A DNA stretch of 34,529 nt, from assembly GCA_020720455.1 (NCBI GenBank), contig DYOQ01000020.1, forward strand, positions 1 through 34,529, in the 5' to 3' direction. The position numbers were made by a program, and so were the translations under genes. Of the stretch, positions 5,827 through 25,037 are shown one piece after another. Every line of letters begins with the position of its first letter. Position 1 is the stretch's first letter. The stretch is from Bdellovibrio sp. (GTDB lineage Bacteria > Bdellovibrionota > Bacteriovoracia > Bacteriovoracales > Bacteriovoracaceae). The notes under the pieces were generated by a model. It was given only the letters and a program-made list of their open reading frames with translations, was not told where the DNA came from and ran no database searches.

Positions 5827-5845
5827 GAGATTCCCTTCTCAAAAA

Positions 5846-5875
5846 AGTATCGCAGAATCATTCTGCAAAAAGCAA
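5846..5875 (-). promoter_or_regulatory. candidate promoter for ftsA with a palindrome in the spacer
   Basis: On the minus strand, TTGCTT (5870-5875) and an extended -10 element, TGC-GATACT (GATACT at 5846-5851), are 18 bases apart. The spacer holds the 15-base palindrome GCAGAATGATTCTGC (5852-5866). Transcription would begin near 5839, leaving a short leader before ftsA. Confidence 0.3.
5852..5866. repeat. 15-base perfect palindrome between ftsQ-like gene and ftsA
   Basis: Seven bases are mirrored around a single central base. As RNA it could form a 5-bp stem with a 5-base loop, followed after 5 bases by six U, so an attenuator is an alternative to an operator. Confidence 0.5.
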
Positions 5876-5889
5876 GCATGCCAACATGC
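5876..5889. repeat. second small inverted repeat between ftsQ-like gene and ftsA
   Basis: GCATG and CATGC are separated by 4 bases. On the minus strand the sequence after it is TTGCTTTTTG, so it resembles a weak terminator or attenuator hairpin placed 12 bases after the ftsQ-like stop codon. Confidence 0.35.
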
Positions 5890-5901
5890 CCATATAAAAT
5901 C

Positions 5902-7531: not shown

Positions 7532-8891
7532 TTGCGCCGGCCCCCATTGTAAGAACTACTGAGTTTGACAAATCTCTAGTGCTAATATTTTCAAAATATT
7601 TTTCAATCTTACCAACATATTTAACACTAATTCCACGCTTAGCAATCTCTTGCGCTAAAGCTTCAGACGTTATGTTTTTAATTGGTTTTTCGCTAGCAGG
7701 ATAGATATCTAAAAGAATCAACTCATCAATATTATCAATATTATCAAACGCTGTAATAAACTCATCCCATGAATCTTTTGTTCTTGTATAACGATGTGGT
7801 TCAAAAATAGCTATAATTTTTTTAGAAGCATAGACCTCTTTTATCGCCTTTAGGACGGCCTTTACCTCTGTCGGATGGTGAGCGTAATCATCAATTATTT
7901 TAGTTACATTAGAACTAAAAAGGGTTTCCATTCTTCTTTGTACGCCCTTAAACAACTTTATTGTTTTTAAAATGACAGCAAGATCAACATTAAGAGTTAG
8001 TGCAAGGCCTATTGCTCCAAGTGAATTTGAAATATTATGATCTCCAGTAACGCTTAGTTCAACTAGGCCCTTAAGCTCACCGCTTACATACAACTCATAT
8101 GAAGCACTCTCTGGTAAATTTTTACACTCTCTTGCTTCAAAATAAAATTTAGACTCACAGTTCTTCTTAGTATTTACTCCATACGTAAGAGAAGGTTTTT
8201 TCAATGAAGGAATTATCTTTAATAAACGATCATTGTTACCATTTAATAAGCAAAGCCCGTCAAAAGGAACCTTGTTTGCAAATTCTGTGAATGCTTCATC
8301 AACCTTATCGTGTGTTTTATAATAATTCATGTGATCATCATCGATATTAGTAATTATCGAGATCTTCGGATTTAAAAGAAGAAAAGTTCCATCTGATTCG
8401 TCTGCTTCAGCAACGAGGTACTCACTACTTCCAACTTTAGCGTGGCCGCCAAGATTCTCAACAATGCCACCAATGATATAGGTAATGTCTATCCCTGCAC
8501 CTTTTAAAATCGTTGCAAGCATACTTGTCGTTGTCGTTTTCCCATGAGTACCCGCAATTGCGATTCCACTTTTAAGTCTCATTAACTCTGCAAGCATCTC
8601 TGCTCTCTTAATAATAGGAATACCGCGATTCTTTGCTTCAATAATTTCAGAATTTAAACTATCAATAGCAGAACTGACGACTAATAACGTAACTCCAGAA
8701 ATATTTTCCTTTTTGTGTCCAATATATATCTGCGCCCCGAGCTTTCTAAGTTTTTCGACATTTACTGATTCTGCGACATCTGATCCACTTACATGATACT
8801 TAAGAGTGAGGAGAATTTCAGCGATGCCACTCATTCCGATTCCACCGATTCCAACAAAGTGAATTTTAGAACTAACTGCTAGGCCTAACAC
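7491..8891 (-). CDS. murC: UDP-N-acetylmuramate--L-alanine ligase MurC
   Basis: MurC adds the first amino acid, L-Ala, to UDP-MurNAc using ATP in the cytoplasm. The 466-aa product shows the N-terminal nucleotide-sugar domain motif HFVGIGGIGMSGIAEIL (about 11-27), an intact ATP P-loop GTHGKTTTT at 114-122, NIDDDHMNYY, and the C-terminal domain motif DDYAHHPTEVKAVL. Length is normal. The start is a GTG at 8891 supported by AGGAG about 7 bases upstream. It overlaps the end of ftsW by 7 bases, so the murG gene that usually separates them is missing. It overlaps murB at the other end. Confidence 0.97.
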   Translation of the reverse strand: MLGLAVSSKIHFVGIGGIGMSGIAEILLTLKYHVSGSDVAESVNVEKLRKLGAQIYIGHKKENISGVTLLVVSSAIDSLNSEIIEAKNRGIPIIKRAEMLAELMRLKSGIAIAGTHGKTTTTSMLATILKGAGIDITYIIGGIVENLGGHAKVGSSEYLVAEADESDGTFLLLNPKISIITNIDDDHMNYYKTHDKVDEAFTEFANKVPFDGLCLLNGNNDRLLKIIPSLKKPSLTYGVNTKKNCESKFYFEARECKNLPESASYELYVSGELKGLVELSVTGDHNISNSLGAIGLALTLNVDLAVILKTIKLFKGVQRRMETLFSSNVTKIIDDYAHHPTEVKAVLKAIKEVYASKKIIAIFEPHRYTRTKDSWDEFITAFDNIDNIDELILLDIYPASEKPIKNITSEALAQEIAKRGISVKYVGKIEKYFENISTRDLSNSVVLTMGAGAIGKRIREIVKTLK

Positions 8892-10003
8892 TGGCCACTC
8901 CTAGAGCAAGTTCTAAGTGTAGATATAATAATTCCAACGATAAATAAATTTACGATCATTGATGAACCACCGTAACTAACAAATGGTAAATTTAACCCTT
9001 TAGTAGGAAGAAGGCCCATCACTACACCCATGTTTAATAAAGCTTGAGTTACTATTGCAAATGTTAGAGATGCAATTAACAACTTACCCAGTCTATTTTT
9101 AACTGCAAAAGCCGCTTTAATTCCAAAAAAAAGAAAAAGAGCGTATAAAGCAATAACGATTACTACACCGACAAAACCTAGCTCTTCCCCAATTACACTT
9201 AAAATAAAATCATTATGGGCCTCGGGAAGATAAAACAATTTTTCATTACTATTGCCAAGGCCCTTCCCTGTAATTTTTCCACTTGCAAGAGCAAGATACG
9301 ACTGAATTATCTGGAAGCCACTTGTTTTTGAATTTTTCCATGGATCAAGAAACGTCATAACTCTTGCAACACGATACGGCTGCATAAATAGGACCAAAAC
9401 TCCGACTGCACTTCCAATGCCAAACAAAGAATAAAAAAATTTCCTAGGAAATGAACTAAGAAAACATGAAAGACCAAGAAGTAATAAACATATAGAAAAA
9501 GTTCCAAAGTCTGGTTGTCTAATTAATATTAAAAAAGGAAACACAATAAGCAAAAACTGCACTATTTTATCTCTCGTTGTAGTTTCACTATACCTATCGA
9601 AAAAAGGGATCGCACTAAAAAGCAAAGTAACCTTTATCAATTCACTTGGTTGAAAATTGATTCCTCCAAGGCCAACCCAACGAGACGCTCCGTTAACTGA
9701 GACTCCTACCGAGGGGAACATTGTTAAAAGAAGCAGAAAAATAGCAAACCCATGAATAATATTTCCGAACTTAAGCCAGAAAGTAAATTTAGTTTTCGAA
9801 ACTATATAAGCAAGCATAGTACCAATGGCAATAAATATAAGCTGCTTGATAATAAAATATTGAGCGCTCCCATGTAGCTCTTTTGAATATATATAACTAG
9901 AAGAAAACACCATGACGCTGCCAAAAATTACAATCGTTGTAACAATAGCAACAATTGGAACAGAGAATTTACTTAGAAAAAAATTTTCATTATCGTTCAT
10001 CAT
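8885..10003 (-). CDS. ftsW: septal peptidoglycan glycosyltransferase FtsW (SEDS family)
   Basis: FtsW polymerises lipid II into glycan strands at the septum, paired with the transpeptidase FtsI encoded at 30793-28886. The 372-aa integral membrane protein has about ten hydrophobic segments. SEDS signatures are present: the RQPDFGT motif at about 162-168, LPEAHNDFILSVIGEELG at 259-275 including the essential Asp (about 265), and the C-terminal GLNLPFVSYGGSSM. Two ATG codons are adjacent (10003, 10000), and no Shine-Dalgarno sequence precedes either. It is the first dcw gene after the nuo operon, 41 bases after the nuoN stop, with a possible promoter in that gap. Confidence 0.96.
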   Translation of the reverse strand: MMNDNENFFLSKFSVPIVAIVTTIVIFGSVMVFSSSYIYSKELHGSAQYFIIKQLIFIAIGTMLAYIVSKTKFTFWLKFGNIIHGFAIFLLLLTMFPSVGVSVNGASRWVGLGGINFQPSELIKVTLLFSAIPFFDRYSETTTRDKIVQFLLIVFPFLILIRQPDFGTFSICLLLLGLSCFLSSFPRKFFYSLFGIGSAVGVLVLFMQPYRVARVMTFLDPWKNSKTSGFQIIQSYLALASGKITGKGLGNSNEKLFYLPEAHNDFILSVIGEELGFVGVVIVIALYALFLFFGIKAAFAVKNRLGKLLIASLTFAIVTQALLNMGVVMGLLPTKGLNLPFVSYGGSSMIVNLFIVGIIISTLRTCSRSGQC

Positions 10004-10008
10004 GAACT

Positions 10009-10036
10009 ATTTTATCAAAGAGCTGCGCCGAAGCAA
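10009..10036 (-). promoter_or_regulatory. candidate promoter directly in front of ftsW
   Basis: On the minus strand, TTGCTT (10031-10036) is followed after 16 bases by an extended -10 element, TGA-TAAAAT (TAAAAT at 10009-10014). The -10 ends 5 bases before the ftsW ATG, so a transcript would start at or near the start codon and be leaderless. That agrees with the missing ribosome-binding site. In AT-rich DNA this could be chance. Confidence 0.3.
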
Positions 10037-10044
10037 ATAGAAAT

Positions 10045-11520
10045 CTACTTAATGAAAATCGCTGGGAAAATTCCCATTTGGATTGTTATAAAAACAGATA
10101 TCGCAACAGTAATACCGCATCCAATCCATTTTGAGGCAACCACGACGCCACTACCATGCTGAGGTTCTTTCATAAACATAGTGATAATTACTCTCAAATA
10201 GTAATATACAGAAACAACTGATGCGAGTACGGCCAAAACGACCAAGACGATCTGTTTAGCTGATACGGCCGCTGCAAACAACAAATACTTTCCGATGAAC
10301 CCAGATGTAAGTGGTATACCTGCCATTGATAAGAGAAAAATAGTCATCGCAATAGATATCATTGGATATTTATTCCAAAGACCTGCCAAATCATCAATTA
10401 CGATATCCTTAGATCCACTTTTTTCTAACATAACAATCAACGCAAAAATTCCAATGTTTGAAAATGCGTATAGAACAAGATAAATCATAATGTATTGAGC
10501 ATTTGCCGGAGAACCACTCAAACTTAAAATCCCTAACAATAAATATCCAGTGTGAGCAATTGTTGAATAGGCAAGCATTCTCTTAAGTTCGTTCTGTTTT
10601 AAGGCCACAAAGTTACCAAAGATTATTGTTACTGCCGCAATACCTCCGACGACAAGAACTATGGCCGTATTGCCAACGGATGTTGATGCAAACATCAAAT
10701 TCAAGCTAACTTTTGTTAGTGCCATAAAAGCAACTAGCTTTACGGCCGCTCCCATAAAACCTGTGACAGAAGTTGTCGCTCCTTGATAAACATCAGGTAT
10801 CCAAGAATGAAATGGGAAAGCACCAACCTTGAAAAGCAGTCCCACCATAACAAACATTAGTCCAACATAAAAGATAGGTGATACTCCACGCTCAAAGCTC
10901 TGTGAAATTAATACTAGATTAAAAGACCCACTTGCTCCAAAAAGCAAGGCCGAGCCATAGAGTAGAAACGCTGAAGCTAATCCACCAAGAATAAAATATT
11001 TCAATCCTGCTTCTGCTGAAAACTTAGAATTCCTTCTCATCGCAACCATAACATAAATTGCCAGTGACATAATTTCTAGTGAGATAAACATAAAGAGAAG
11101 ATGATTTGTTGATACCATTAAAATCATACCGGCAAGAGAGATCGGAAGAAGTCCATAAATCTCAGACATCAACTCTTCTCTTTTATCATAACCGTAATTT
11201 ACCAAAAGACCTAAAACCGCGCACAAATGAAGTACGAGACTCAATATTCGTTCTTGATAATCAAAGAGTAAGGTTCCAGAGAGAAAATCGACCTGTTCGA
11301 AAGAAAATGTTTTATAAGTTACAGTAGCGCTTAAAAACATTCCGAACAAACTTAAGAGCATCGCTCCAGTGCGACCTTTATCGGATGATTTTTGAGCACC
11401 AACAATAATTACCAAAACTGCTGTAATCGAAAGAATTACTAGCGGCAACAAAGAAACAGATTGTTCCGAAGTTAGTGTTGGTATCGGGAAAATTTCTAGT
11501 AAAGACGCCACGCTATTCAT
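10045..11520 (-). CDS. nuoN: NADH-quinone oxidoreductase subunit N
   Basis: NuoN is one of three antiporter-like membrane subunits of complex I that carry proton channels. The 491-aa product is polytopic (about 14 hydrophobic segments). It has the TM5 Glu motif FISLEIMSLAIYVMVAMRR, the TM7 Lys region GLLFKVGAFPFHSWIPDVYQGA, and KRMLAYSTIAHTGYLL, all typical of the Mrp/NuoN family. The ATG at 11520 has AAGGTG upstream and overlaps the nuoM end by 8 bases. It is the last gene of the nuo operon and is followed by ftsW after 41 bases. Length is normal. Confidence 0.97.
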   Translation of the reverse strand: MNSVASLLEIFPIPTLTSEQSVSLLPLVILSITAVLVIIVGAQKSSDKGRTGAMLLSLFGMFLSATVTYKTFSFEQVDFLSGTLLFDYQERILSLVLHLCAVLGLLVNYGYDKREELMSEIYGLLPISLAGMILMVSTNHLLFMFISLEIMSLAIYVMVAMRRNSKFSAEAGLKYFILGGLASAFLLYGSALLFGASGSFNLVLISQSFERGVSPIFYVGLMFVMVGLLFKVGAFPFHSWIPDVYQGATTSVTGFMGAAVKLVAFMALTKVSLNLMFASTSVGNTAIVLVVGGIAAVTIIFGNFVALKQNELKRMLAYSTIAHTGYLLLGILSLSGSPANAQYIMIYLVLYAFSNIGIFALIVMLEKSGSKDIVIDDLAGLWNKYPMISIAMTIFLLSMAGIPLTSGFIGKYLLFAAAVSAKQIVLVVLAVLASVVSVYYYLRVIITMFMKEPQHGSGVVVASKWIGCGITVAISVFITIQMGIFPAIFIK

Positions 11521-13057
11521 GAATCACCTTTTCCATTAATTGTTTTGAGTATGAATCAAGGGTACTGTTAGACTTTCCAAAAAATGTGTTCGGGAAAAAT
11601 CCTATTCCAAAAATAAAAACTGTTAATATCCCCATCGCTAGAAACTCTCTAACAGATAGATCAGCAACATGTTTATTATGATCGTTTGTTACTGGGCCAA
11701 ACATTACTCGCTGATAGGCCTTCAGAGCGTATATCGCTCCAAAAATTACCCCGAGTCCAGTTATTAATGCTACAACTGGCCGTACCTGAAAAGTTCCAAA
11801 TAAAATTGTGAACTCACCAACAAAACCATTTGTTCCTGGTAAAGCAACAGAAGAGAGAGTCAGAATCATAAATGCTATCGCCATAATAGGAGCTGATTTT
11901 GCAATACCACCAAAATCGTTAAGATTTCTCGTATGTAATCTTTCATACAAAAATCCGACGATCATAAAGAGGCCCGCCGAAGAAATTCCGTGGTTAACCA
12001 TCTGATAAAGAGATCCCGCTGTTGCAACCTGATTAAAGGAGAATAGTCCAACTAAAATATAACCCATATGCGAGACAGAAGAGTAAGCGACCAACTTTTT
12101 AAAATCGCTTTGGCCCCAAGCGCAGAACGCACCATATATGACACCAATGATTCCTAAAATCATCATCATCATTGAAAAATATGATGCCGCTTCCGGAAAC
12201 ATCGGAATTGCAATTCTTATGAGTCCATAAGTTCCAAGTTTCAACAACACAGCGGCAAGAAATACTGAACCTAGTGTTGGCGCCTGAACGTGAGCATCTG
12301 GCAACCATGTATGAAATGGAACCATCGGAACCTTGATGACGAAGGCAAGAGTGAAGGCCAAGAACAAAAGACCTTGCTCGCTAAAAACTGCTGAACAAAC
12401 TCCATTATGAAAAAAATCATATTGAAGTTTTGCTAAATCAATTAATGATGCTGAAGGTACTCCAAAATTTTGTTGATGACGATAAACCATCCACATAATT
12501 GCCACTAGCATGAGCAACGATCCTACCATCGTATATATAAAAAATTTTGTCGTTGCATATACCCTTTCTGAACCACCCCAAATACCAATCAAAAAAAACA
12601 TCGGTATAAGTACAATTTCCCAGAAAAAATAAAACAGAAAAAGGTCGCATGCTAAAAATGTTCCATACATTCCTGTCTGGAGCACCATTACCATAAAAAC
12701 AAAAAACTTTTCTTGTTTGAGTTTACTAAAATCTTTTGGCCATGTTCCTAAAATAGCAATCGGTGTAATAAACGCTGTTAACATAACAAGCGGAAGAGAT
12801 ATCCCATCGACACCAAGAAAATAGCTAATACCAAGTTGTGGTATCCAACTAACAAGTTGAACAAACTGCATTTCACTTATAAACCCATCAAAGTTGGCCC
12901 ACAATTTCAGTGCTAGCAATAAATTTGCAACACCGGCAACAAGAGCAAAGGTTCTAAAATAACGCTCAAGCTTGCTTGGGAGTACCAACAAAACTGCTCC
13001 AAAAAGAAGTGGAGCAAAGATGATCCAGCTGAGCAATGAAGAACTATTTTCTATCAT
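11513..13057 (-). CDS. nuoM: NADH-quinone oxidoreductase subunit M
   Basis: NuoM is the second antiporter-like proton-channel subunit of complex I. The 514-aa protein has the TM5 Glu motif FFWEIVLIPMFFLIGIWGG (about 140-158), the channel Lys segment KVPMVPFHTWLPDAHVQAPT, then SVFLAAVLLKLGTYGLIRI and FKKLVAYSSVSHMGYILVG. These separate it from NuoN and NuoL. The ATG at 13057 has AGGATAAAG upstream and lies 9 bases after the nuoL stop; the end overlaps nuoN by 8 bases. Length and segment pattern are normal for the family. Confidence 0.97.
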   Translation of the reverse strand: MIENSSSLLSWIIFAPLLFGAVLLVLPSKLERYFRTFALVAGVANLLLALKLWANFDGFISEMQFVQLVSWIPQLGISYFLGVDGISLPLVMLTAFITPIAILGTWPKDFSKLKQEKFFVFMVMVLQTGMYGTFLACDLFLFYFFWEIVLIPMFFLIGIWGGSERVYATTKFFIYTMVGSLLMLVAIMWMVYRHQQNFGVPSASLIDLAKLQYDFFHNGVCSAVFSEQGLLFLAFTLAFVIKVPMVPFHTWLPDAHVQAPTLGSVFLAAVLLKLGTYGLIRIAIPMFPEAASYFSMMMMILGIIGVIYGAFCAWGQSDFKKLVAYSSVSHMGYILVGLFSFNQVATAGSLYQMVNHGISSAGLFMIVGFLYERLHTRNLNDFGGIAKSAPIMAIAFMILTLSSVALPGTNGFVGEFTILFGTFQVRPVVALITGLGVIFGAIYALKAYQRVMFGPVTNDHNKHVADLSVREFLAMGILTVFIFGIGFFPNTFFGKSNSTLDSYSKQLMEKVIHE

Positions 13058-13066
13058 AACTTTATC

Positions 13067-15049
13067 CTATAAAGGGTTCAATATCCCGTACACCGTAACA
13101 ACAACAATAAAAACACCAAACAACATAACAAGCGCATAGGCCTGTAGATCACCATTTTGGATAACTCTAATTTTATCAGCAAAAAATCTGCTTACAACGG
13201 CAACACCATTTACAGCGCCATCAATTACAACCTTATCAAAAACATTCGCTGCCCAAGATGATATTCCTTTAAGTGAAGTTATCACTACAGCGTCGTATAT
13301 CTCATCAACATAGTATTTGTTGGCAAGAACTTGCTGAACTCCAGCAATTCCTTTTACTATGTCAGAAATAAAAAATTTATTTTTGAATGTTCTCCATCCA
13401 ATTGTGAAACTACCAACTGCAAAAACAATTGAACCAAACATAACCACGCCTTCATGAAGAGGTAAATGTTCGCCAACAAGTGGCAGATGTTTAACCGCAA
13501 TTATCGGTGACAACCAATGGGAAATGAGATGGGGAATATGTCCAAGATTCATCCCAAGTAAATGAGGTATTCCTAGAAGGCCTCCTACTGCGGCCAAAAA
13601 GGCTAGCACATAAAGAGGTCCAACCATACTCCACGGAGACTCATGAAGATGATCTTTTGCATGATGTGACAATCTCTCTTCACCTAAAAACGTCATACTC
13701 ATCATTCTAGCTGTGTAAAAAGCTGTTAAAATAGCAGTGATCACTCCAATAATAAACAGATGTGAAAAACCCGCAGGAAGTGCAATCGTAGAATATATAA
13801 TTTCATCCTTGCTAAAAAAACCTGAAAAAATTGGAATTCCTGAAATCGCCAAAGATCCGATTAACATTGTGATATAAGTATGCGGAAGATATTTTTTGAG
13901 CCCACCCATCTTTCTCATATCTTGTTCACCACTGCATGCATGAATTACGGAACCTGAACCAAGGAAGAGTAGTGCCTTAAAAAAAGCATGTGTCATCAAA
14001 TGAAAAATAGCTGTATTATACGCTCCAACTCCGCAAGCAAGAAACATATAACCTAATTGCGATACTGTAGAATAGGCCAAGACCTTTTTAATATCAGTCT
14101 GAGCGACTGCAATTGTTCCTGCAAACAATGCTGTAACTGCGCCAACGTTAGCAACAACAGAGAGCGCGGTGGCAGAAAGCTCAAATAATGGATTAAGCCG
14201 AGCAACCATATAAACACCAGCAGTAACCATTGTCGCCGCATGAATAAGGGCAGAGACAGGAGTTGGGCCGGCCATCGCATCTGGCAACCAGACATACAGC
14301 GGAAGCTGAGCTGATTTACCAGTAGCTCCAACAAAAAGCGCCAAGCAAATAAGTGTCGCAACAGGAGTGACCTTTGCAATAAAATCTGGATTTCCAAGAA
14401 GAGCTACAATTTCTGAAATTGTTAACGTTCCAAAAACTGAGTAAAGCAAAAACATTCCAACTAAGAAACCAAGATCACCAACTCTATTTGTAATAAAGGC
14501 CTTAACTCCTGCATTTGCCTTTTCAGTATCGCTATACCAAAAGCCGATCAATAAATAAGAACAAAGGCCAACACCTTCCCAACCAAAGAAAAGAATTACT
14601 AGACTATCACCAAGAACTAGCAACAACATCGCAAAACAAAAAAGGTTAAGATAGCTAAAGAATCTACCGACGGCATGATCGTGGTGCATATATCCGATAC
14701 TATAAATATGAATTAAGCTTCCTACTCCGGTAATAATCAGTGTCATTAGAGAACTAAGAGCATCTATTCGTAAAGAAAAAGGTATAACGAGATTACCATA
14801 ATTGAACCAATCAAAAGCATAACTCAACACTGCTCCAGAACTTTCACCCATCTCGTGGACTTGTAAAAACGCTTTTACTGCTAGGATAAAAGAAGAAGCA
14901 ATAAAAAAAGTAGCGATTCCTCCTGCTACATTTGCAGGCGTCTTAGCAAATCCTCGATAAAAGATTGGCATTATCGCCCCATTGATAAGAAAACCTAACA
15001 ATGGAAGAAGAATGATCAAAAGTGGGATGTTTGATTCAATTACTTGCAC
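13067..15049 (-). CDS. nuoL: NADH-quinone oxidoreductase subunit L
   Basis: NuoL is the distal antiporter-like subunit of complex I and carries the long lateral helix. The product is 660 aa when started at the GTG at 15049. This start is chosen because GAGGAT lies 6 bases before it, and it leaves 4 bases after the nuoK stop. A longer reading to 15097 adds 16 polar residues, overlaps nuoK by 44 bases, and has no support. Motifs include FFGWEGVGLCSYLLIGFWYS, KSAQLPLYVWLPDAMAGPTPVSALIHAATMVTAGVY and QTDIKKVLAYSTVSQLGYM. The C-terminal extension with a final membrane segment is present, as expected for NuoL rather than MrpA. Confidence 0.96.
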   Translation of the reverse strand: MQVIESNIPLLIILLPLLGFLINGAIMPIFYRGFAKTPANVAGGIATFFIASSFILAVKAFLQVHEMGESSGAVLSYAFDWFNYGNLVIPFSLRIDALSSLMTLIITGVGSLIHIYSIGYMHHDHAVGRFFSYLNLFCFAMLLLVLGDSLVILFFGWEGVGLCSYLLIGFWYSDTEKANAGVKAFITNRVGDLGFLVGMFLLYSVFGTLTISEIVALLGNPDFIAKVTPVATLICLALFVGATGKSAQLPLYVWLPDAMAGPTPVSALIHAATMVTAGVYMVARLNPLFELSATALSVVANVGAVTALFAGTIAVAQTDIKKVLAYSTVSQLGYMFLACGVGAYNTAIFHLMTHAFFKALLFLGSGSVIHACSGEQDMRKMGGLKKYLPHTYITMLIGSLAISGIPIFSGFFSKDEIIYSTIALPAGFSHLFIIGVITAILTAFYTARMMSMTFLGEERLSHHAKDHLHESPWSMVGPLYVLAFLAAVGGLLGIPHLLGMNLGHIPHLISHWLSPIIAVKHLPLVGEHLPLHEGVVMFGSIVFAVGSFTIGWRTFKNKFFISDIVKGIAGVQQVLANKYYVDEIYDAVVITSLKGISSWAANVFDKVVIDGAVNGVAVVSRFFADKIRVIQNGDLQAYALVMLFGVFIVVVTVYGILNPL

Positions 15050-15053
15050 AGTC

Positions 15054-15362
15054 TTATCCTCGTAAAATTGATGCTTCACCTGTTTTTGGTGAACCAAAAT
15101 TTCTAAATAGGTTTATTAATATTGATAGGCCAACCGCAGATTCAGCAGCTGCTATCGTAATCGTGAAAAAAACTTGCATCTGTCCATCCACCAAAGATAG
15201 ATAGTGCGAAAAACCAATCATAGATAAATTGGCAGCATTAAGCATCAGCTCAATCCCCATTAAAACCATAATTGTGTTTCTTCTTTGAATAACAATCAAC
15301 GTCCCCATCATAAAAAGAAACGCTGCTAATACTTGAATAAATAGTTCGCTACTTATAAACAT
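15054..15362 (-). CDS. nuoK: NADH-quinone oxidoreductase subunit K
   Basis: NuoK is a small three-helix membrane subunit of complex I, related to MrpC, lying between the antiporter-like subunits and NuoJ/NuoA. The product is 102 aa from the ATG at 15362, which has GGAG 5 bases upstream and gives the usual family length; an in-frame TTG at 15383 would overlap nuoJ and has no such site. The signature RRNTIMVLMGIELMLNAANLSMIGF carries the conserved membrane Glu used in proton transfer. The segment AAESAVGLSILINLFRNFG carries the second conserved Glu. Confidence 0.95.
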   Translation of the reverse strand: MFISSELFIQVLAAFLFMMGTLIVIQRRNTIMVLMGIELMLNAANLSMIGFSHYLSLVDGQMQVFFTITIAAAESAVGLSILINLFRNFGSPKTGEASILRG

Positions 15363-15375
15363 ATACTCTCCAGTC

Positions 15376-15909
15376 TCAATCAAACTTTCTTTTTGCTAGA
15401 ACTACTGCACTAATAATCGCGACAAGAAGTGCGAGCGATATTACTTCAAATGAGAGATAATATTGTGAAAAAAGTGCATGGGCCAAAACTTTTGTATTAC
15501 CACCTAAATCAACAACCGCTTGTGGCGTAAACTGTCCTTGCGGGACAAGATAGTTATAGCTCTCAAAATGTAATCCGAGCTGAGATACCAACAAAACAAA
15601 CAAACCGACACACGCTACAAGTGTGCCTAAAAACGATGGAGACATTAGCTTGAAATCTAAAACCTCTTTTTTCAAGTTTAAAAGCATTATTGAAAAAATA
15701 AATAAAACCATAACTGCGCCAGCGTAAACAACAAGCTGAATGGCCGCAATAAAATGTTCCTGCATTAGTCCATACATCCCAGCAATTGTTAGCATGATTC
15801 CTAGTAAAGAAAGTGCGCCCGTTATCGGCGTTCGTGCAAACAACATAATTACAGACAAAATAACCGCAACAAGTCCCAATCCAAAAAATGCGTATGTTAA
15901 ACTATCCAC
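15376..15909 (-). CDS. nuoJ: NADH-quinone oxidoreductase subunit J
   Basis: NuoJ is a five-helix membrane subunit of complex I near the quinone site and the E-channel. The 177-aa protein is hydrophobic throughout. It carries the conserved segment HFIAAIQLVVYAGAVMVLFIFSIMLLNL, whose Tyr-Ala-Gly-Ala motif lies in the unusual bent third helix. The start is a GTG at 15909 that overlaps the nuoI stop by 8 bases, with AGGTAAAAGGT upstream. It ends 13 bases before nuoK. Length is normal. Confidence 0.95.
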   Translation of the reverse strand: MDSLTYAFFGLGLVAVILSVIMLFARTPITGALSLLGIMLTIAGMYGLMQEHFIAAIQLVVYAGAVMVLFIFSIMLLNLKKEVLDFKLMSPSFLGTLVACVGLFVLLVSQLGLHFESYNYLVPQGQFTPQAVVDLGGNTKVLAHALFSQYYLSFEVISLALLVAIISAVVLAKRKFD

Positions 15910-16408
15910 GACCTTTTACCTCACGTTTAAGATATACCAGATCATATTTTGCTTCTTCACGACTGGTTATTGCCATTTCATATTTCCCTGAAAGTTTAAT
16001 TGCATCCTTTGGGCACGCCTCTTCACAAAAACCACAGAAGCAACACCTAAGCGCGTCTATATCAAATTTCACTGGTTGTTTTTCTTTTTTAACACCATCA
16101 GGATTATGTGCCGACTCTCGCTCGCCTGCCACTATTGTAATACACTCAGCAGGACAAACCGTTTGGCACAAATAACAAGCAGTGCAGTTTTCTGTTTTAT
16201 TTCTATCAATAGAAATGAAGTGTGCCCCTCTAAACCGATCAGAGTACTCACGTCTAACTTCAGGATACATGATTGTGTTATGCTTTCTTAAAAAGAAACC
16301 ATTGATAAAATGTTTCAATGTAATTAACAGACCTTGAACAATGGCCAAAAGATATATCTTTTCCGACCAGGTATATGGTTTAGACACATTTACTGTTTTA
16401 GTGGCCAT
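15902..16408 (-). CDS. nuoI: NADH-quinone oxidoreductase subunit I (two [4Fe-4S] ferredoxin-like)
   Basis: NuoI carries clusters N6a and N6b, which pass electrons from NuoG to NuoB in the connecting arm of complex I. The product is 168 aa from the ATG at 16408 (AGGAG 7 bases upstream); a TTG at 16414 sits too close to that site. Two CxxCxxCxxxCP motifs are seen: C75-C78-C81-C85 and C122-C125-C128-C132. An N-terminal amphipathic helix (about 15-38) is typical for membrane association. It starts 15 bases after nuoH and overlaps nuoJ. Confidence 0.97.
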   Translation of the reverse strand: MATKTVNVSKPYTWSEKIYLLAIVQGLLITLKHFINGFFLRKHNTIMYPEVRREYSDRFRGAHFISIDRNKTENCTACYLCQTVCPAECITIVAGERESAHNPDGVKKEKQPVKFDIDALRCCFCGFCEEACPKDAIKLSGKYEMAITSREEAKYDLVYLKREVKGRG

Positions 16409-16423
16409 CGGCAATCTCCTAAA

Positions 16424-17509
16424 CTATTTCACAAAAAAATGAGATACTAAAATTATCACTATTAAATTAACGAACGATAACGGAAACAAAATTTTCCAAC
16501 CTAGATCCATCAACTGATCAAATCTAAACCGTGGCAATGTCCAACGGACCCAGACAAACACAAATAGAAAAAACCCTACTTTTAAAAGTAATGAAACAAA
16601 TTCAAATACTGCCTGAATATTTTGTACTGTTTCAGGTGAACCAGAAGTGAAGGTACCGACAAACTCAACAAGGGAAGCGAAACCAGGAAGCAAACCAAAT
16701 CCACCAAAAAACATCGTAGAAATTAGAGCAGATGCCATCACCATAGCAACATATTCCGCAAGAAAAAACATACCAAATTTCATTGCACCATACTCTATAT
16801 GGTAACCACCAACAATCTCTGAATCTCCCTCTGGTAAATCAAATGGCAACCTGTTTGTTTCTGCAAAAATAGCAATAAAGAAAATAAGCGCACCAATTGG
16901 GTTTACAACGACACCCCAGTAAGGAATAAAACCAAAGATTTTTTCACTTTGCCAAAATACCATTTCTTGTAGATTAAATGTTCCGTAGATTATCAGCATA
17001 GAGAGAATCGACATTCCCATGGAGATCTCATACGAAACCATTTGTGATGATCCACGCAACGAACCCAGAACGGTATATTTATTATGAGACGCCCATCCCC
17101 CTAAAATAACCGGGTATACCTCAAGCCCTGCAAACGCTAAAAGGAAAATTAAGCCACTATCTATCTCAGCAATTTGCAAAACAATTTTTTGGCCAAATAC
17201 AATTACATGTGAGCCAAATGGAATCACCATTAAAGCACCAACTGGCGCAGCTAACGCAATCACAGGAGCTAATACGTAGAAAAATTTATTAACATGGCCG
17301 GGAATAAAACTCTCTTTAGTAAAAAGTTTTAAAACATCTGCAACAGATTGCAACAATCCAAAAGGGCCAACTCTGTTTGGGCCGACCCTTCCTTGCATCC
17401 ACGCAGAACCTCTTCTTTCAAACCAAACTAAAAAAGGAACGCTAGTTAACGCAAAACCAAGTACCACTGCAATCTTGGCAAAAAGTTGTATGAAATCAAA
17501 TAGTGTCAT
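16424..17509 (-). CDS. nuoH: NADH-quinone oxidoreductase subunit H
   Basis: NuoH (ND1) forms the base of the quinone-binding chamber where the membrane arm meets the peripheral arm. The 361-aa protein has eight or nine hydrophobic segments. It has the conserved motifs RRGSAWMQGRVGPNRVGPFG (about 33-51), EIDSGLIFLLAFAGLEVY, MVSYEISMG, the acidic loop ETNRLPFDLPEGDSEIVGG with GYHIEYGAMKF, and VRWTLPRFRFDQLMDLGWK near the end. AGGATTTCAAA precedes the ATG at 17509, 9 bases after the nuoG stop. Length is normal. Confidence 0.97.
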   Translation of the reverse strand: MTLFDFIQLFAKIAVVLGFALTSVPFLVWFERRGSAWMQGRVGPNRVGPFGLLQSVADVLKLFTKESFIPGHVNKFFYVLAPVIALAAPVGALMVIPFGSHVIVFGQKIVLQIAEIDSGLIFLLAFAGLEVYPVILGGWASHNKYTVLGSLRGSSQMVSYEISMGMSILSMLIIYGTFNLQEMVFWQSEKIFGFIPYWGVVVNPIGALIFFIAIFAETNRLPFDLPEGDSEIVGGYHIEYGAMKFGMFFLAEYVAMVMASALISTMFFGGFGLLPGFASLVEFVGTFTSGSPETVQNIQAVFEFVSLLLKVGFFLFVFVWVRWTLPRFRFDQLMDLGWKILFPLSFVNLIVIILVSHFFVK

Positions 17510-17518
17510 TTTGAAATC

Positions 17519-18946
17519 CTATTTTTTAAAAAAACTAATAATACTATTAACAGCTAATCCCTCTCCAAGATGAGCAATCGCCGGAGAAAAGTTTTGTGAA
17601 ACCCCATCACAATTAATATATGTTCCACTCTTCTCTGTAGTTGCTAAACCTGGTAAAACAACTTCAACATTAGTTCCGAATGAGCCAATCTCTTTTTGAG
17701 TCCAAACACCAATAATAATAATTTTCTTACAGTTTTTAACCTGTGGAACTCCAGATCTTCCATAACGAATAAGAATGGCAACATCGCAGTCACCAACAAG
17801 ATCGCCGTCAAGATGATTTAACTTGCAAGCTGATGCCCCGTTGCTATTTGGTGTCTTGTCCTTCATCATTAACATGTGATCAAGCTTCTTATCTTCACCA
17901 TAACCACAATATGAGCTAAACTCAAACTTCTTACCAAATTTATCTGGCAAAGATGCTTGAATATATTTCATCTCTTCATTCGTAGCATCGGTACCAATAA
18001 CAACCTTAACTTTGCTTGCGGAAGTTATTAGATAATTAACTGCTGCACCGGCCAGTTCCCAGCTGGTTGACTTCAATGACCCTTCATGGGCCAAAAGAGG
18101 TTTTACTATTCTTGTTGCATCCATTACTTGATGATAACTTAATCTACCTTCATCACAGATCCAGTGGCCATTTACTTTCTCATTATAATGAGGTTTAAAA
18201 CGGTAAACCACTCCATTTTCACTATGGACACTTATGTTACAACCTTTCGAACATCTGTCACACACTGATGGATATTGCTCTAAAAACCATGACCGTTTTT
18301 TAAAACGAAAGTCATTAAAAGTATGAGCTCCTACTGGACAAATATCTGATAAACATCCTTGATAGTTACTGGTTAAACCAAGTTTCTCATCAGATAGAGT
18401 AAGCTCTTTATGCCAACCTCGATTAATCATCATCAAATCACAACTTTTAACAACCTCTTCTGTAAAGCGAACACAACGTTCACAGTGAACACACCGATTC
18501 ATATTTAACGTAATGTTAGGAGACAATTTTTTTGTTGCTGCTTTTGAATAAACTCTCTTCTCTTCCAAAAAACTAGACGTCACTGGCCCATATCGATAGT
18601 TATTATCTTGAAGTTCACACTCTCCTGCCTTGTCACAAACAGGACAATCAAGCGGATGATTGGTTAACAAAAACTCCATTACACCTGCACGACTTTTCAG
18701 AACGCGCTCGCTCTTGGTGTTAACAACCATACCATCTGTTGCTATCGTCGAACAAGCTGTCATCAGCTTTGGCATTTTTTCAACTTCAACTGTACACATA
18801 CGACATGTACCTGCAATCGGTAGACCAGGATGGTAACAGTACCTTGGAATCAAATGCCCTTTTCCGGCCCTCTCTGCAGCTTGCAAAATAGTATCACCTT
18901 GTACAAACTCAACAGCCTCTCCATCAATCTTTATATTGTTACACAT
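17519..18946 (-). CDS. nuoG: NADH-quinone oxidoreductase subunit G (short form)
   Basis: NuoG is the iron-sulphur scaffold of the NADH module of complex I. From the ATG at 18946 it is 475 aa; a GTG at 18952 is too close to the GAGG site. Cluster ligands are clear: N1b [2Fe-2S] C37, C48, C51, C65; N5 H97, C101, C104, C110; N4 C152, C155, C158 and C203; and the extra N7 set C229, C232, C236, C264. The molybdopterin-oxidoreductase-like domain is only about 200 residues, so the protein is much shorter than typical NuoG (roughly 670-900 aa). The frame stays open and no broken remainder lies downstream, so this looks like a natural short form. It overlaps nuoF by 8 bases. Confidence 0.95.
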   Translation of the reverse strand: MCNNIKIDGEAVEFVQGDTILQAAERAGKGHLIPRYCYHPGLPIAGTCRMCTVEVEKMPKLMTACSTIATDGMVVNTKSERVLKSRAGVMEFLLTNHPLDCPVCDKAGECELQDNNYRYGPVTSSFLEEKRVYSKAATKKLSPNITLNMNRCVHCERCVRFTEEVVKSCDLMMINRGWHKELTLSDEKLGLTSNYQGCLSDICPVGAHTFNDFRFKKRSWFLEQYPSVCDRCSKGCNISVHSENGVVYRFKPHYNEKVNGHWICDEGRLSYHQVMDATRIVKPLLAHEGSLKSTSWELAGAAVNYLITSASKVKVVIGTDATNEEMKYIQASLPDKFGKKFEFSSYCGYGEDKKLDHMLMMKDKTPNSNGASACKLNHLDGDLVGDCDVAILIRYGRSGVPQVKNCKKIIIIGVWTQKEIGSFGTNVEVVLPGLATTEKSGTYINCDGVSQNFSPAIAHLGEGLAVNSIISFFKK

Positions 18947-20273
18947 GAGCACGCCCTCTATCTATTTCCATAGCATCGATAGTCCTTGACGCAATTTTTT
19001 GCGGACAACGACGCTGACGAACATGATCCTCAAACTCAGATCTAAACTTGCGAACGGCAGAAAGTACTGGCCCTGTTACCGCATCAGCAAATGCACAAAT
19101 TGTTTGTCCGGCCATATTACTGCAAATGCGCTCTATCATCTCAAGATCTTTATGCGTTCCCTTGCCAGCTTCAATCCGAACAAACATTCTGGCCAACCAA
19201 TGGCTACCTTCTCTACATTGAGAACACTGTCCACACGACTCGTGCTCATAAAATCGAAGAAGGATTGATGTCGCCTCAACAATACAGACATCTTCACTCA
19301 TTACAATCGCACCACCTGATCCGGCCATCGTTCCAGCTTTCATCATGGCATCAAAACACATTGGAATATCTATTTCTGTTGCTGTTAACATAGGAGCAGA
19401 TGCTCCTCCAGGAATTACAGCTTTTAATTTTTTACCACCACGAACTCCACCAGCTATATCGATTAGCTCTCTAAGAGTTGTACGCATAGAGAGTTCATAA
19501 ATACCAGGACGCTCAACTTGGCCTGAAACACAAAACAATCTTGTTCCACCAGATTTCTCCGTTCCAAGAGAAGCAAATTTGGGCCCACCATGTTCAAGAA
19601 TATAAGGAACGACAGCAAAAGTTTCGACGTTATTCACACAAGTTGGCATTCCAAATGCTCCTACCTGTGCAGGGAATGGAGGTTTTAATCTTGGTTCACC
19701 TCTTTTTCCCTCTAGTGAATTTAAAAGTGCAGACTCTTCTCCACAAATGTAAGCTCCAGCACCCCTATATACGAACAGCTCAAAATCCATTTTGGATCCT
19801 AAAATATCTTTTCCTAAAAAGCCTTTTTTCCTAGCATCATCAATAGCGGACTGTAATATTCGTGCCTCTTTAAAAAACTCTCCTCTAATGTAGATATAAC
19901 CTCTACACGCTCCTACCGCCTTTGCTGCAATCACCATCCCTTCGATTAACGAATGAGGATTTTTCGACATAATCAGTCTGTCTTTGAATGTTCCAGGTTC
20001 ACCCTCATCTGCGTTACAAACAAGATATTTCGGCTTAGGATTTCCTTTTGCATCTACTGGATTTTTTGGCATGAATGACCATTTCATTCCGGTTGGAAAA
20101 CCCGCACCACCACGTCCTCTTAAATTTGATTTTTTGACCTCTTCAATGATCGCATCAGAACCAATCTCAAACGCTTTCTTTAAAGAGTTATATCCACCAT
20201 TTGCCAAGTAAAAATCAAGTGTATGACAATTTAGTGTATTAATATGTTTGGTTAAAATTTTCTCTTCCATCAT
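18939..20273 (-). CDS. nuoF: NADH-quinone oxidoreductase subunit F (NADH/FMN-binding)
   Basis: NuoF binds NADH and FMN and takes the electrons into complex I. The 444-aa product starts at the ATG at 20273, which overlaps the nuoE stop (ATGA) and has GAGG 7 bases upstream. Motifs: NADH-binding GRGGAGFPTG at 53-62, FMN-binding NADEGEPGTFKDR at 87-99, GAGAYICGEESALLNSLEG at about 171-189, and the N3 [4Fe-4S] ligands C347, C350, C353 (SCGQCSQCREG) with C393. Length and domain order are normal. Confidence 0.98.
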   Translation of the reverse strand: MMEEKILTKHINTLNCHTLDFYLANGGYNSLKKAFEIGSDAIIEEVKKSNLRGRGGAGFPTGMKWSFMPKNPVDAKGNPKPKYLVCNADEGEPGTFKDRLIMSKNPHSLIEGMVIAAKAVGACRGYIYIRGEFFKEARILQSAIDDARKKGFLGKDILGSKMDFELFVYRGAGAYICGEESALLNSLEGKRGEPRLKPPFPAQVGAFGMPTCVNNVETFAVVPYILEHGGPKFASLGTEKSGGTRLFCVSGQVERPGIYELSMRTTLRELIDIAGGVRGGKKLKAVIPGGASAPMLTATEIDIPMCFDAMMKAGTMAGSGGAIVMSEDVCIVEATSILLRFYEHESCGQCSQCREGSHWLARMFVRIEAGKGTHKDLEMIERICSNMAGQTICAFADAVTGPVLSAVRKFRSEFEDHVRQRRCPQKIASRTIDAMEIDRGRAHV

Positions 20274-20800
20274 GGCCAAACCTCTGGATTATAAGTTTCA
20301 CGTCCAATATTATTTTCACCAGCATCTATTTTTTTAAAAACATCATCCATAAGCTGATCAAGTTTCTCAACATCAAGATTCTCATTATAATCTTCATTCA
20401 CTTGAAGAACTGGACCACTACCACATGCCCCCAAACACTCCACCTTACTAAGTGTATACTTACCATCAGGTGTTGTTTGACCATGTTTAATTTTTAATCT
20501 CTTCTCCATATGATCCATTAATTTATCTGAACCATTCAACCAACATCCAATATTTCCACAAAGCTGATAGTGAACCTTTCCAACAGGTTTCTTATTAAAC
20601 ATTGTATAAAATGTTACAACTTCGCGAACCTTCATAAAAGGAAGATTTAAGAACTCGGCAATATCTCTCATTGAATCTTCACTTACCATTCCGGTTTCGT
20701 GCTGAACCTCATGTAGAGCTGGAATGACCAGCGCCTGTAGTGTCGGAAAATTTGGCCGAAGTTTATCAAGTTTATCTTTTATGTGCTTAGACAGTGCCAT
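20270..20800 (-). CDS. nuoE: NADH-quinone oxidoreductase subunit E ([2Fe-2S] thioredoxin-like)
   Basis: NuoE carries the off-pathway N1a [2Fe-2S] cluster next to the FMN site of NuoF. The 176-aa protein has an N-terminal helical part (about 1-70) with VVTFYTMF and a thioredoxin-like domain whose ligands are C81 and C86 (CGNIGC) and C122 and C126 (CLGAC). AAGGG lies upstream of the ATG at 20800, 14 bases after nuoCD. It ends by overlapping nuoF by 4 bases, a sign of translational coupling in the NuoEF pair. Confidence 0.97.
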   Translation of the reverse strand: MALSKHIKDKLDKLRPNFPTLQALVIPALHEVQHETGMVSEDSMRDIAEFLNLPFMKVREVVTFYTMFNKKPVGKVHYQLCGNIGCWLNGSDKLMDHMEKRLKIKHGQTTPDGKYTLSKVECLGACGSGPVLQVNEDYNENLDVEKLDQLMDDVFKKIDAGENNIGRETYNPEVWP

Positions 20801-20814
20801 AAATCAACCCTTAT

Positions 20815-22530
20815 CTAGCGATCAAGTTCGCCAGCAATAATATTAATACTTCCAAGCGTTGCAACCGCATCTGGAATTTTTCCACCCTTAACAACCTGTT
20901 CAAAATTTTGAAATAACATAAACGATGGAGACTTAACTCTCATTCTCCAAGCTTTTGGCCCACCTCTACTAACAATATAAAACCCTAACTCGCCGTTTGG
21001 TGCTTCAATTGATGAATAAGCATCTCCACTTGGAACATCAACACCATCCATAAAAAATTTAAAATGGTGAATTAAATCTTCCATTTTAGTATATACATCT
21101 TGCTTGTTTGGTATTTTAACTCGCTTATCATCAACCCAAATTGGGCCAGTTGGAATTCTATCAACACACTGTTTTAAAATTCTAGTGGATTGTCTCATCT
21201 CTTCCATTCTTACAAGATAACGATCATAAACGTCACCATTGCTACCAACTGCCACATCAAAATCTAAACTAGAATAATTATAATATGGCCGATCTCTTCT
21301 TAAATCAAAATCAACACCTGAAGCTCTTGCTACTGGCCCCATCAAAGAGTATTTAATCGCCTCTTCTTTAGTGATGACACCAACGTCTCTTGTTCGATCA
21401 ATCCAGATTCGATTTGAAGTTAACAGATTTGAAATCTCATCAATAGTTTTTGGAAACTCTTCAACAAATCGTTTCATTCTTGCAACAAAGTTATCTGGAA
21501 GATCCTGGCTCATGCCTCCGATCCTAGTGTAACTGGTAGTTAAGCGCATTCCACACATACTCTCAATCATCGTATATGCTTCTTCTCTCCAATAATAAAA
21601 ATGCCAGAACACTGTCATTGCACCAAGGTCCAGTGCATTGATGGCAACACAAACGATGTGGTCAATAATTCTTGCAAGCTCCATCGCCATCACTCTTATC
21701 ACCATGGTTCTTTCTGTAATAGAAATTCCCATCATCTTTTCAACGGCCATACAGTACGCAACATTATTCGCAAGAGATGAACAATAGTTCAACCTATCTG
21801 TATAAACAATCCACTGGTGATAAGTTTTATTCTCACCAAGTTTTTCTATCGCTCTATGAAGATATCCTAACTCACAAGCAGCATCCTCTATCGTCTCTCC
21901 ATTCACTCTACACATGACCCTTAATGTTCCATGCATCGCTGGATGTGACGGGCCAAGGTTTAACAAAACATTTGGGTTATAAAAATCATTAAGATTAACC
22001 CTACCTTCATTTGTATTTGGCAAAGGGTTAGTTCCAAGATGAAGTCCAATATTGTTTGAGAAAGGTTGACGTTGTCTTAGTGAATAATCTTTACGAAGTG
22101 GATGACCAACAAAACGATCGTCCATCATTATTCTTCTTAAATTTGGATGATTATCAAAAATAATACCGTACATATCAAACACTTCACGCTCAAGCCAATT
22201 AGCTCCAGTAAAGTGAATTGACACCGATTTTGCATGATCACCCTCACGTAATAAGAGCTTCAATCTTACTCTAGAACGATTCTCTAAAGAGTAAAGTTGA
22301 TACACAAGAACAAAGCGACCATCACCATCTACACCATCAACATTATCGTATGCAGTTAAATCCGTTAAGTAGTTGTATCGTGTTTCTTGATCATTTTTTA
22401 AATCATTAGCTGTATCGACCATATCTGTTGGTGACTTTGCCCAAATGACAATTTCTCCAAGAGAATCTGTCTCAATTTTTCGGCCATCGCTATATCTAGT
22501 TTTAATCTGTTCGGCCAAACTGTTTTTCAT
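20815..22530 (-). CDS. nuoCD: NADH-quinone oxidoreductase fused subunit C/D
   Basis: This gene joins the 30-kDa (NuoC) and 49-kDa (NuoD) subunits that, with NuoB, form the quinone-reducing part of complex I. Residues 1-160 are NuoC-like, with [13 protein letters not shown] and the signature GHPLRKDY at 142-149. Residues about 180-571 are NuoD, with [14 protein letters not shown] at 191-204, [16 protein letters not shown] at 222-237, YTDRLNYCS, and [16 protein letters not shown] near the end. The fusion is well known from E. coli, and the frame is continuous here. The NuoC part is compact. Its ATG overlaps the nuoB stop (ATGA) and follows a GGAGGG site. Confidence 0.98.
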
Positions 22531-23141
22531 CGGCCCTCCTGCTTTGATTTTTCAGTGGAAACATATTCCGGAGTAATTGTTAATCCTGCCTTAATCACTT
22601 GATCCCTAGTTCTAGAAACACAGTTTTTATATGTCATAGCATTAACGGCATCTTCATGAGTTGGTTTGTTTGATAAAGCTCGAGGAATTTTCCCTTCAAT
22701 TATTTTTTGTAAATGTAAAACTGCATACAAAAAACCCTCTGGAATTGGAGGACACCCTGGGACATAAACATCAACAGGCATAATTTCATCTATACCTTGA
22801 AGTACAGAGTAGGTATCAAAAATTCCACCAGAAGATGAACACGCCCCGATAGCAAGTACCCATTTTGGCTCTAACATTTGATCATAAATAGTACGAAGTA
22901 CTGGTGCCATTTTCGTCGTAATAGTTCCTGCCACCAAGAGCATATCACACTGCCTCGGAGAGAAACGAACAACCTCAGCACCAAACCGAGATAGATCATA
23001 ATGAGAAGAGAGAGTTGACATCATCTCAATTCCACAACAAGAAGTTCCAAATGGCATTGGCCACAGAGAATTTTTTCTCGCCCACTTTGCAGCCTCTTCT
23101 AACAACATGGGAAAGATCATCGCACTTCCATCTTTTGACAT
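22527..23141 (-). CDS. nuoB: NADH-quinone oxidoreductase subunit B (N2 cluster)
   Basis: NuoB holds cluster N2, the [4Fe-4S] centre that reduces quinone. The 204-aa product starts at the ATG at 23141, which has AGGAG about 6 bases upstream; further in-frame starts up to 23156 lie on or before that site. Ligands are visible: adjacent Cys35-Cys36 (TSCCGIEMM), Cys101 (GACSSSGG) and Cys130 ([10 protein letters not shown]). The conserved [14 protein letters not shown] segment is at about 60-73. It is 22 bases after nuoA and overlaps nuoCD by 4 bases. Length is normal. Confidence 0.98.
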
Positions 23142-23163
23142 CACCATCTCCTGCAATTACAAA

Positions 23164-23565
23164 TTAATCCCAATTAAAAGCGTTCCGTCTACGTAAATAA
23201 ATATATCCACCTAGCAGTAGAAAAATAAAAAATAACATTTCAATTAAAACGAACGGGCCAAATGCTCTATATCCTTTATATACAAGTGTCCAAGGATACA
23301 TAAACACTATTTCAACATCAAAAATCAGAAAAATTATTCCAATAACATAATATCTTACAGAGAACTGTTGATGAGCATCGCCAACGTAAGCAACACCACA
23401 CTCATAGACATCTTTCTTCTTTGCTAAAGCATTTGCACTTTTTTCTTTAGCACGAAAACCAAGGATGTGATTAATAGCAACGAGAGCGCCACCTAGAACG
23501 ATAGCGATGATTAAAAGAATCAGAGCTGCTATATATCCCTCAACTTGCCAGAATTGTAGAGGCAT
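23164..23565 (-). CDS. nuoA: NADH-quinone oxidoreductase subunit A
   Basis: NuoA (ND3) is a three-helix membrane subunit whose loop between helices 1 and 2 reaches the quinone site. The 133-aa product has the loop motif YECGVAYVGDAHQQFSVRYYVIGIIFLIFDVEIVFMYPW, in which the conserved Cys and the membrane Asp/Glu residues are kept. AGGAG lies 5 bases before the ATG at 23565. It is the first nuo gene and follows murD after an 86-base gap that holds a good promoter candidate, so nuo can probably be transcribed independently. Confidence 0.97.
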   Translation of the reverse strand: MPLQFWQVEGYIAALILLIIAIVLGGALVAINHILGFRAKEKSANALAKKKDVYECGVAYVGDAHQQFSVRYYVIGIIFLIFDVEIVFMYPWTLVYKGYRAFGPFVLIEMLFFIFLLLGGYIYLRRRNAFNWD

Positions 23566-23603
23566 AACTTCTCCTAAAATATAATTAAATTTTTATGTAG
23601 TGA

Positions 23604-23632
23604 AGTTTAGCACATTGATCTTATGAACTCAA
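23604..23632 (-). promoter_or_regulatory. candidate promoter of the nuo operon
   Basis: On the minus strand, TTGAGT (23627-23632) and TAAACT (23604-23609) are exactly 17 bases apart. The -10 is preceded by TGC, giving an extended -10 (TGn). Transcription would start near 23597, about 32 bases before the nuoA ATG. The surrounding 86-base gap is very AT-rich and is the largest in the 27-gene block. Confidence 0.5.
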
Positions 23633-23651
23633 TTAATGTTTAATAAAATAA

Positions 23652-25037
23652 TTAAAGTTGATAGACTAACTTTTTAAAATAGTTTCCTCTTTCTTCATAG
23701 TCTCTAAAAAAGTCAGTACTTCCATTTCCTGGAGACAATAAAATCACATCGCCAGTCCTTGATTTTTGATATGCAATTAGAACCGATTCTTCGAATGATC
23801 CAACAAGGAAAGCTTGGGCCTCTTCTTCTATCGATCTATTCATTCTCTCTTTACTCTCGCCAACCAAAACTAAGACTCTCACTCGATCGATGATATCATC
23901 AATATACTTGCCATAATCTGTTTCTTCATCATCTTTCCCACCAGCAATCAAGACAATCGGTTGCTTTACAGCATCAATGCTCTTCATGAGATCATCCATC
24001 TGCTCCGCCTTAGAATCGTTATAAAACAAGACCCCATTCTTTTCCATGACAAATTCAAGTCGATGTGGAATCCCTGGAAACTTCTCAATACAGAGTTGAA
24101 TTGCGGCATCGCTGACTCCTAACGCTTTACAAGCAGTTACAGAGGCCAACATATTCTCTCTATTCTCAACGCCAATAATTCTCATTTTACTAACTATAAA
24201 CTCTGAGTGACAGTGAATATTTGAATGAATTCTTCTATTATGAAAATGAGTGCCTTGAACTTCATTCATAACACCAAGAGTAACGTACGATCTTCTCGAA
24301 TACCAGTATGTCTGACAGGAAGCGTTTCGGAAAAAAACATTACTTGCAAGAGTATCAAAATTAACAATCAAATAATCATCTGTTGATAATGATTTAATGA
24401 TCTTAAGTTTATGTTCAATGTATTCACCCTCTGAAGTAAAATGGCCATCATTAACATAATGATCTTTAATATTTGTAAATACCACCAGCTTGGGGTGGAA
24501 GTTTTCAAGTTTCAACATCTGTCTAGCGCTAACCTCTACCACAACGTAGTCAAACTCTTCACTCTTTCCCTGCATTGCATATTCAATAAATGGAGACTCA
24601 CTAGTACCACCAACGAATGCTTTTTTTCCATCTTGCTTCAACATAAAACCAATCATGTTCGCAACAGTTGTTCTACCAAAACTTCCACATACAGCAATAA
24701 TTGGCTTCCTACATAATAAATTTCCAAGAGCAAACTCGCTATAAACCTCTTTCCCTTGGGCCCTGGCCAACTCTAACTGAGGTAGATCCGGTTTTACTTC
24801 TGAGGAATAAACAATAACATCTGCTTCTAAAAAATCTTCATCTCGATGTTCACCAAACGTCATTGCAGGAACTGGCTCAATTCTTTTTAATTTTTTAACA
24901 GACTTATTAAGGTCAAATATCGGCTTAATATCAGTAACTCTGATATTTGCTTCAATCATATTAAAAAAACGAATCAGTGAAAAACCAGTCCTACCGATAC
25001 CAACAATCAATACTTTTTTTCCTCTAAAGCGTTCCAT
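23652..25037 (-). CDS. murD: UDP-N-acetylmuramoyl-L-alanine--D-glutamate ligase MurD (atypical P-loop)
   Basis: MurD adds D-Glu to UDP-MurNAc-L-Ala. The 461-aa product has the usual three-domain layout. It starts with KKVLIVGIGRTGFSLIRFF (residues 7-25). The C-terminal ligase motifs FPGIPHRLEFV (320-330), FYNDSKAE (338-345) and LLSPGNGSTDFF (433-444) are present. The ATP P-loop, normally GTNGKT/S, reads GSFGRTT at 118-124, so the nearly invariant Lys is Arg (R122) and Asn is Phe. The usual GxHNxxN reads GVENREN (289-295). The gene is intact, with AGAGG before the ATG. Either it is a diverged active MurD or catalysis has been altered. It lies 18 bases after mraY. Confidence 0.88.
   Translation of the reverse strand: MERFRGKKVLIVGIGRTGFSLIRFFNMIEANIRVTDIKPIFDLNKSVKKLKRIEPVPAMTFGEHRDEDFLEADVIVYSSEVKPDLPQLELARAQGKEVYSEFALGNLLCRKPIIAVCGSFGRTTVANMIGFMLKQDGKKAFVGGTSESPFIEYAMQGKSEEFDYVVVEVSARQMLKLENFHPKLVVFTNIKDHYVNDGHFTSEGEYIEHKLKIIKSLSTDDYLIVNFDTLASNVFFRNASCQTYWYSRRSYVTLGVMNEVQGTHFHNRRIHSNIHCHSEFIVSKMRIIGVENRENMLASVTACKALGVSDAAIQLCIEKFPGIPHRLEFVMEKNGVLFYNDSKAEQMDDLMKSIDAVKQPIVLIAGGKDDEETDYGKYIDDIIDRVRVLVLVGESKERMNRSIEEEAQAFLVGSFEESVLIAYQKSRTGDVILLSPGNGSTDFFRDYEERGNYFKKLVYQL

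Follow-up and report, generated by a model that had tools for sequence, protein, structure and literature searches.

Inside the otherwise conserved division and cell wall (dcw) gene cluster of this genome, from an uncultured bacterium related to the predator Bdellovibrio, murD and ftsW are parted by 13.6 kb of nuo genes that, by gene content, encode a complete 14-subunit NADH:quinone oxidoreductase (complex I) with predicted NADH-to-quinone coupling. This gene order is genuine and rare, the only case in our sample. We hold with fair confidence that a nuo operon bearing its own promoter, linked through horizontal transfer to the operon of Bdellovibrionales RIFOXYD12_FULL_39_22, was inserted at a permissive murD|ftsW border and was nearly neutral for division. 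Few bacterial gene clusters are as conserved as dcw. Its history, as reconstructed over 85 species, is mainly one of loss or delocalization, likely without gene gain (PMC8871954). Here this cluster, whose described trend is loss, holds a large operon of an unrelated process. The family data offer a possible reason: murD|ftsW appears to be a transcription-unit border at which different lineages acquired unrelated genes. The general idea that follows is that conserved clusters may take up foreign genes at promoter borders, not inside transcripts.

Gene order and rarity of the locus

The window, by which we mean the whole stretch of DNA analyzed, comprises bases 1 to 34,529 of a 42,527-base contig from a draft genome (92 contigs, 97% complete). 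ORF calling and family searches recovered a single gene order, all on the minus strand: PNP, rsmH, ftsL-like, ftsI, murE, murF, mraY, murD, nuoA, B, CD, E, F, G, H, I, J, K, L, M, N, ftsW, murC, murB, ftsQ, ftsA, and ftsZ. The upstream dcw part, rsmH to mraY (25056 to 32145), was identified by NCBIfam and Pfam matches and by the equal order in relatives; the ftsL-like ORF within it lacks a family match and takes its name from its position. The last gene ahead of the insertion, murD (23652 to 25037), carries Pfam Mur ligase and MurD-like domains. The first gene past it, ftsW (8885 to 10003), scores above the cut-off of TIGR02614 and leads into the downstream part, murC to ftsZ (3095 to 8891), with NCBIfam and Pfam matches. 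The genes from rsmH to ftsZ thus follow the dcw order on one strand, as in relatives, but murD and ftsW do not adjoin.

Between them lies the nuo operon (10045 to 23565), in which every gene has both an NCBIfam and a Pfam match. All subunits A to N are present in canonical order, including the NADH-oxidizing module NuoE, F, and G; the ORFs number 13 because nuoC and nuoD are fused (20815 to 22530). NuoG is short (477 amino acids), as it is in relatives, and in keeping with this short family form it scores 403.7 bits against a curated cut-off of 470. The initial annotation had described a complete complex I operon of 13 genes, in canonical order on one strand, set into the dcw cluster with spacers of 86 nucleotides after murD (23566 to 23651) and 41 nucleotides before ftsW (10004 to 10044); the description is confirmed, and its figures are exact.

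Other features of the window can be stated briefly. An ORF of 899 amino acids 3' of ftsZ (200 to 2899, minus strand) has no Pfam or NCBIfam match, and an Rfam search of the window found no structured RNAs. No murG lies between ftsW and murC (7491 to 10003), here or in part of the family. The murG of this genome is found right at one end of a different contig (G000:C29:32328-33359), with a score just under the murG cut-off. We considered and rejected a tie between the missing murG and the nuo insertion, as many nuo-free relatives also lack murG at this place.

We searched for FtsW and NuoB, singly or as one joined query, in 128 family relatives and 61 other genomes of the phylum. None of these 189 relatives shows nuo within dcw among the matches listed, which places the order in 1 of 190 genomes searched. 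The smallest distance between FtsW and NuoB among the matches listed is about 77 kb, with many of the drafts fragmented; weaker matches beyond these in one search belonged mostly to the second complex I type described below. In the 32 relatives whose dcw loci were read directly, murD and ftsW share a strand, and the spacer between them never holds nuo. We also inspected 80 nuoCD loci drawn from many phyla; their flanks, followed for up to 10 kb, contain no credible dcw gene. Three weak matches near these loci, at 23 to 26% identity, were discarded as likely paralogous enzymes. An order common across unrelated bacteria, which the initial annotation named as a refuting case, was thus seen neither in the phylum (189 relatives, among the matches listed) nor around the 80 nuoCD loci. 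We found no published report of nuo inside dcw in a literature search that covered few subscription papers.

A second, 11-subunit complex I is also encoded in this genome; it has no nuoE, F, or G and is split over two contigs: nuoA-H-J-K-L-M-N on one (G000:C30, L213:3501-11229) and nuoB-C-D-I on the other (G000:C59, L068:11344-14035). This 11-subunit form is common in the family, and a NuoF match is absent from 6 of the 12 genomes tested; in this genome, the window operon holds the only NuoF above the family cut-off. Given how commonly the family has complex I without NuoE, F, and G, the benefit of the window operon is likely metabolic, in that it adds a complex I with NADH input next to the 11-subunit type.

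Promoter-like elements and the murD|ftsW junction

The 86 nucleotides 5' of nuoA (23566 to 23651, minus strand) align with the nuoA leader of RIFOXYD12_FULL_39_22 (G029), and the similarity starts right past the murD stop codon. Common to both leaders is TTGAGT, followed after 17 nucleotides by a TG-extended TAAACT or TAGACT; here the element is TTGAGT-N17-TAAACT with the TG extension, and the spacer also holds AGGAGAAG 5' of nuoA. Of the 14 family nuoA leaders compared, 11 contain a looser motif (TTG[AT][AGT], 13 to 16 nucleotides, TGnTA) 56 to 84 nucleotides 5' of the start used, against a mean of 0.29 and a maximum of 3 in 1,000 dinucleotide shuffles; it was set after inspection, and its 11 positive rows represent five genera. 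A generic scan for promoters and terminators gave counts at the level of shuffles, so that cross-genome comparison alone was informative. From the shared element we infer that the nuo operon has an active promoter of its own upstream of nuoA.

A range of comparative data bears on the junction itself. We scored a -10 box with a match of at least 5 of 6 positions, placed 4 to 9 nucleotides 5' of a possible ftsW start. Such a box precedes ftsW in 13 of 31 family loci, against a shuffle mean of 2.7 (maximum of 6 in 200 runs). The same count gave 0 at mraY, murD, murC, ftsA, and ftsZ, 7 of 28 at ftsQ, and 4 of 22 at ftsI. Hairpin-plus-T terminators lie 3' of murD in 6 of 33 genomes; after the other genes before ftsZ they were seen at ftsQ (5 of 34), murF (two), and murB (one), and at none of the rest. 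All of these border motifs were defined after looking at the data and counted in related genomes. With that reading of the counts, murD|ftsW looks like the ancestral border of two dcw transcription units, with fainter indications of such a border at ftsQ and ftsI.

This genome has kept its TAAAAT 5 nucleotides 5' of the ftsW ATG, within the 41-nucleotide spacer (10004 to 10044, minus strand) and now 3' of nuoN. It is a candidate promoter of the leaderless type; a -10 box 4 to 9 nucleotides from the start would yield a leaderless ftsW mRNA. No terminator is visible 3' of murD or of nuoN here, so read-through is possible and a weak coupling may exist.

Other lineages have used the same junction. 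While murD and ftsW adjoin in most relatives, four carry a small unrelated gene between them, always in the dcw direction: a 4HBT thioesterase in G034, a trypsin-like protease in G036, and proteins without a family in G012 and G014. Counting this genome, extra genes are found at 5 of 33 murD|ftsW junctions versus 4 of 307 other dcw junctions (p = 0.0006; 0.004 when this genome is excluded), p-values that are only indicative because the test was made post hoc on related genomes; ftsW|murC was omitted from the count because murG lies there. As a separate observation, the rsmH-to-murF genes are not directly 5' of mraY in G029 and G025, where dcw is split at another junction.

Origin of the nuo operon and rival explanations

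The nuo proteins of this genome (G000) that are comparable at length are 72 to 89% identical to those of G029 (81% for NuoCD), with lower identity to all others. For 91 pairs of nuo-bearing family genomes, we set concatenated nuo sequences against rpoB and dcw. G000 and G029 are the only pair of the 91 in which nuo (84.2% identity) is more alike than rpoB (77.2%), and their nuo/rpoB distance ratio is 0.67, versus 1.16 for the next pair. By rpoB, seven of the other genomes compared are closer to G000 than G029 is. The dcw tree groups the two weakly, with support of 0.60 to 0.86. Set against rpoB and dcw in the 91 pairs, nuo is in conflict with the core genes. That nuo exceeds rpoB in this pair and in no other points to horizontal transfer, and the simplest reading is that nuo was probably transferred horizontally, either directly or from a common donor. 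As rpoB is a single marker, the similarity could conceivably also reflect unusually slow evolution of nuo, or vertical inheritance followed by many losses. The third-codon-position GC content (GC3) of nuo and dcw is 0.289 and 0.263 in this genome and 0.387 and 0.357 in G029, so nuo fits each host, which argues that the transfer was not recent and is also evidence against a chimeric contig. Except for one one-sided neighborhood common to two genera, the neighbors of nuo differ between genera. We found no insertion footprint at the nuo borders: in a search for border repeats or a target-site duplication, the longest direct match measured 8 nucleotides and the longest inverted one 10, both at shuffle level, no tRNA lies in the window, and no mobile-element or integration signature was seen at the borders. 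Elsewhere in the family, G025 and G103 belong to one genus and are 94.9% identical in rpoB but only 61.6% in nuo, which suggests either replacement of the nuo operon in one of the two genomes or nuo operons that are not orthologs.

In the explanation we favor, the nuo operon would have arrived at, or been relocated to, murD|ftsW with its upstream promoter attached, at a junction that was permissive because one dcw transcription unit already ended and another began there. The first of these units would still end at murD, with no transcript broken by nuo, and ftsW would still start from its own leaderless-type candidate promoter. As both units would keep their borders and promoters, both halves of dcw would stay expressed; it is from this that we infer near-neutrality for division. 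Of the two alternatives framed by the initial annotation, insertion with the flanking genes undisturbed draws support from a junction that in relatives is intact and border-like and from a conserved promoter-like element belonging to nuo. The other, an order under selection for joint transcription of respiration and septum synthesis, finds no support, the order being present in 1 of 190 genomes searched, among the matches listed.

That second alternative would make nuo and dcw one regulated superoperon in which respiratory capacity and septum synthesis vary together. The single strand, the short spacers, and the lack of a visible terminator at either border here are what it would predict, and nutritional control of dcw has a precedent in Escherichia coli, where PdhR acts on dcw and also controls ndh and cyoABCDE (PMC3265435). 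Besides the rarity of the order, however, the promoter-like elements at both borders argue against a single superoperon, and the other genes found at murD|ftsW, such as the thioesterase and the protease, are unrelated to respiration; we judge selected coupling very improbable. A related reading, in which the insertion made ftsW to ftsZ rely in part on transcription continuing from the nuo promoter, also seems improbable to us; were it true, division-gene expression would follow respiratory expression through a simple operon fusion.

Two further explanations were weighed. The lineage's own nuo operon could have been moved into dcw by rearrangement, without horizontal transfer: nuo changes position between genera, so relocation does happen, its GC3 fits the host, and the dcw tree, if weakly, groups G000 with G029. 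Against such a history stand a nuo more alike than rpoB in this pair and in no other, and the lack of this nuo in G022 and G017, which are placed among these lineages; we regard internal relocation as unlikely, if the more serious of the two. An assembly that wrongly joined dcw and nuo contigs is suggested by a draft of 92 contigs and by an order known from one genome of its genus, but it would take two exact joins at the borders of intact genes on one contig. Both junctions lie well inside the 42,527-base contig, and the nuo GC3 (0.289) matches the dcw of this genome (0.263), not the nuo of G029 (0.387). An assembly join is extremely unlikely as the cause of the order.

Comparison with known systems

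From rsmH to ftsZ, the locus resembles the canonical dcw cluster of E. coli, which runs from mraZ to ftsZ, in both gene content and gene order. It differs in that 13.6 kb of nuo separates murD from ftsW and, as many relatives do, in having no recognized mraZ 5' of rsmH, where a PNP-type phosphorylase is found instead, and no murG between ftsW and murC. The nuoA-N operon of G029 has the same 13 genes, order, and upstream promoter-like element as the window operon, at 72 to 89% identity, but it follows the methionyl-tRNA synthetase gene (metG), outside dcw. The 11-subunit complex I of the family, also present in this genome, has homologous A to D and H to N subunits that are about 26 to 49% identical, and it lacks the NADH module nuoE, F, and G. 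Acquisition at operon borders, where a foreign unit with its own promoter settles between transcription units, is a known pattern; what sets this case apart is that the host cluster is highly conserved and that the same junction has been used several times in one family.
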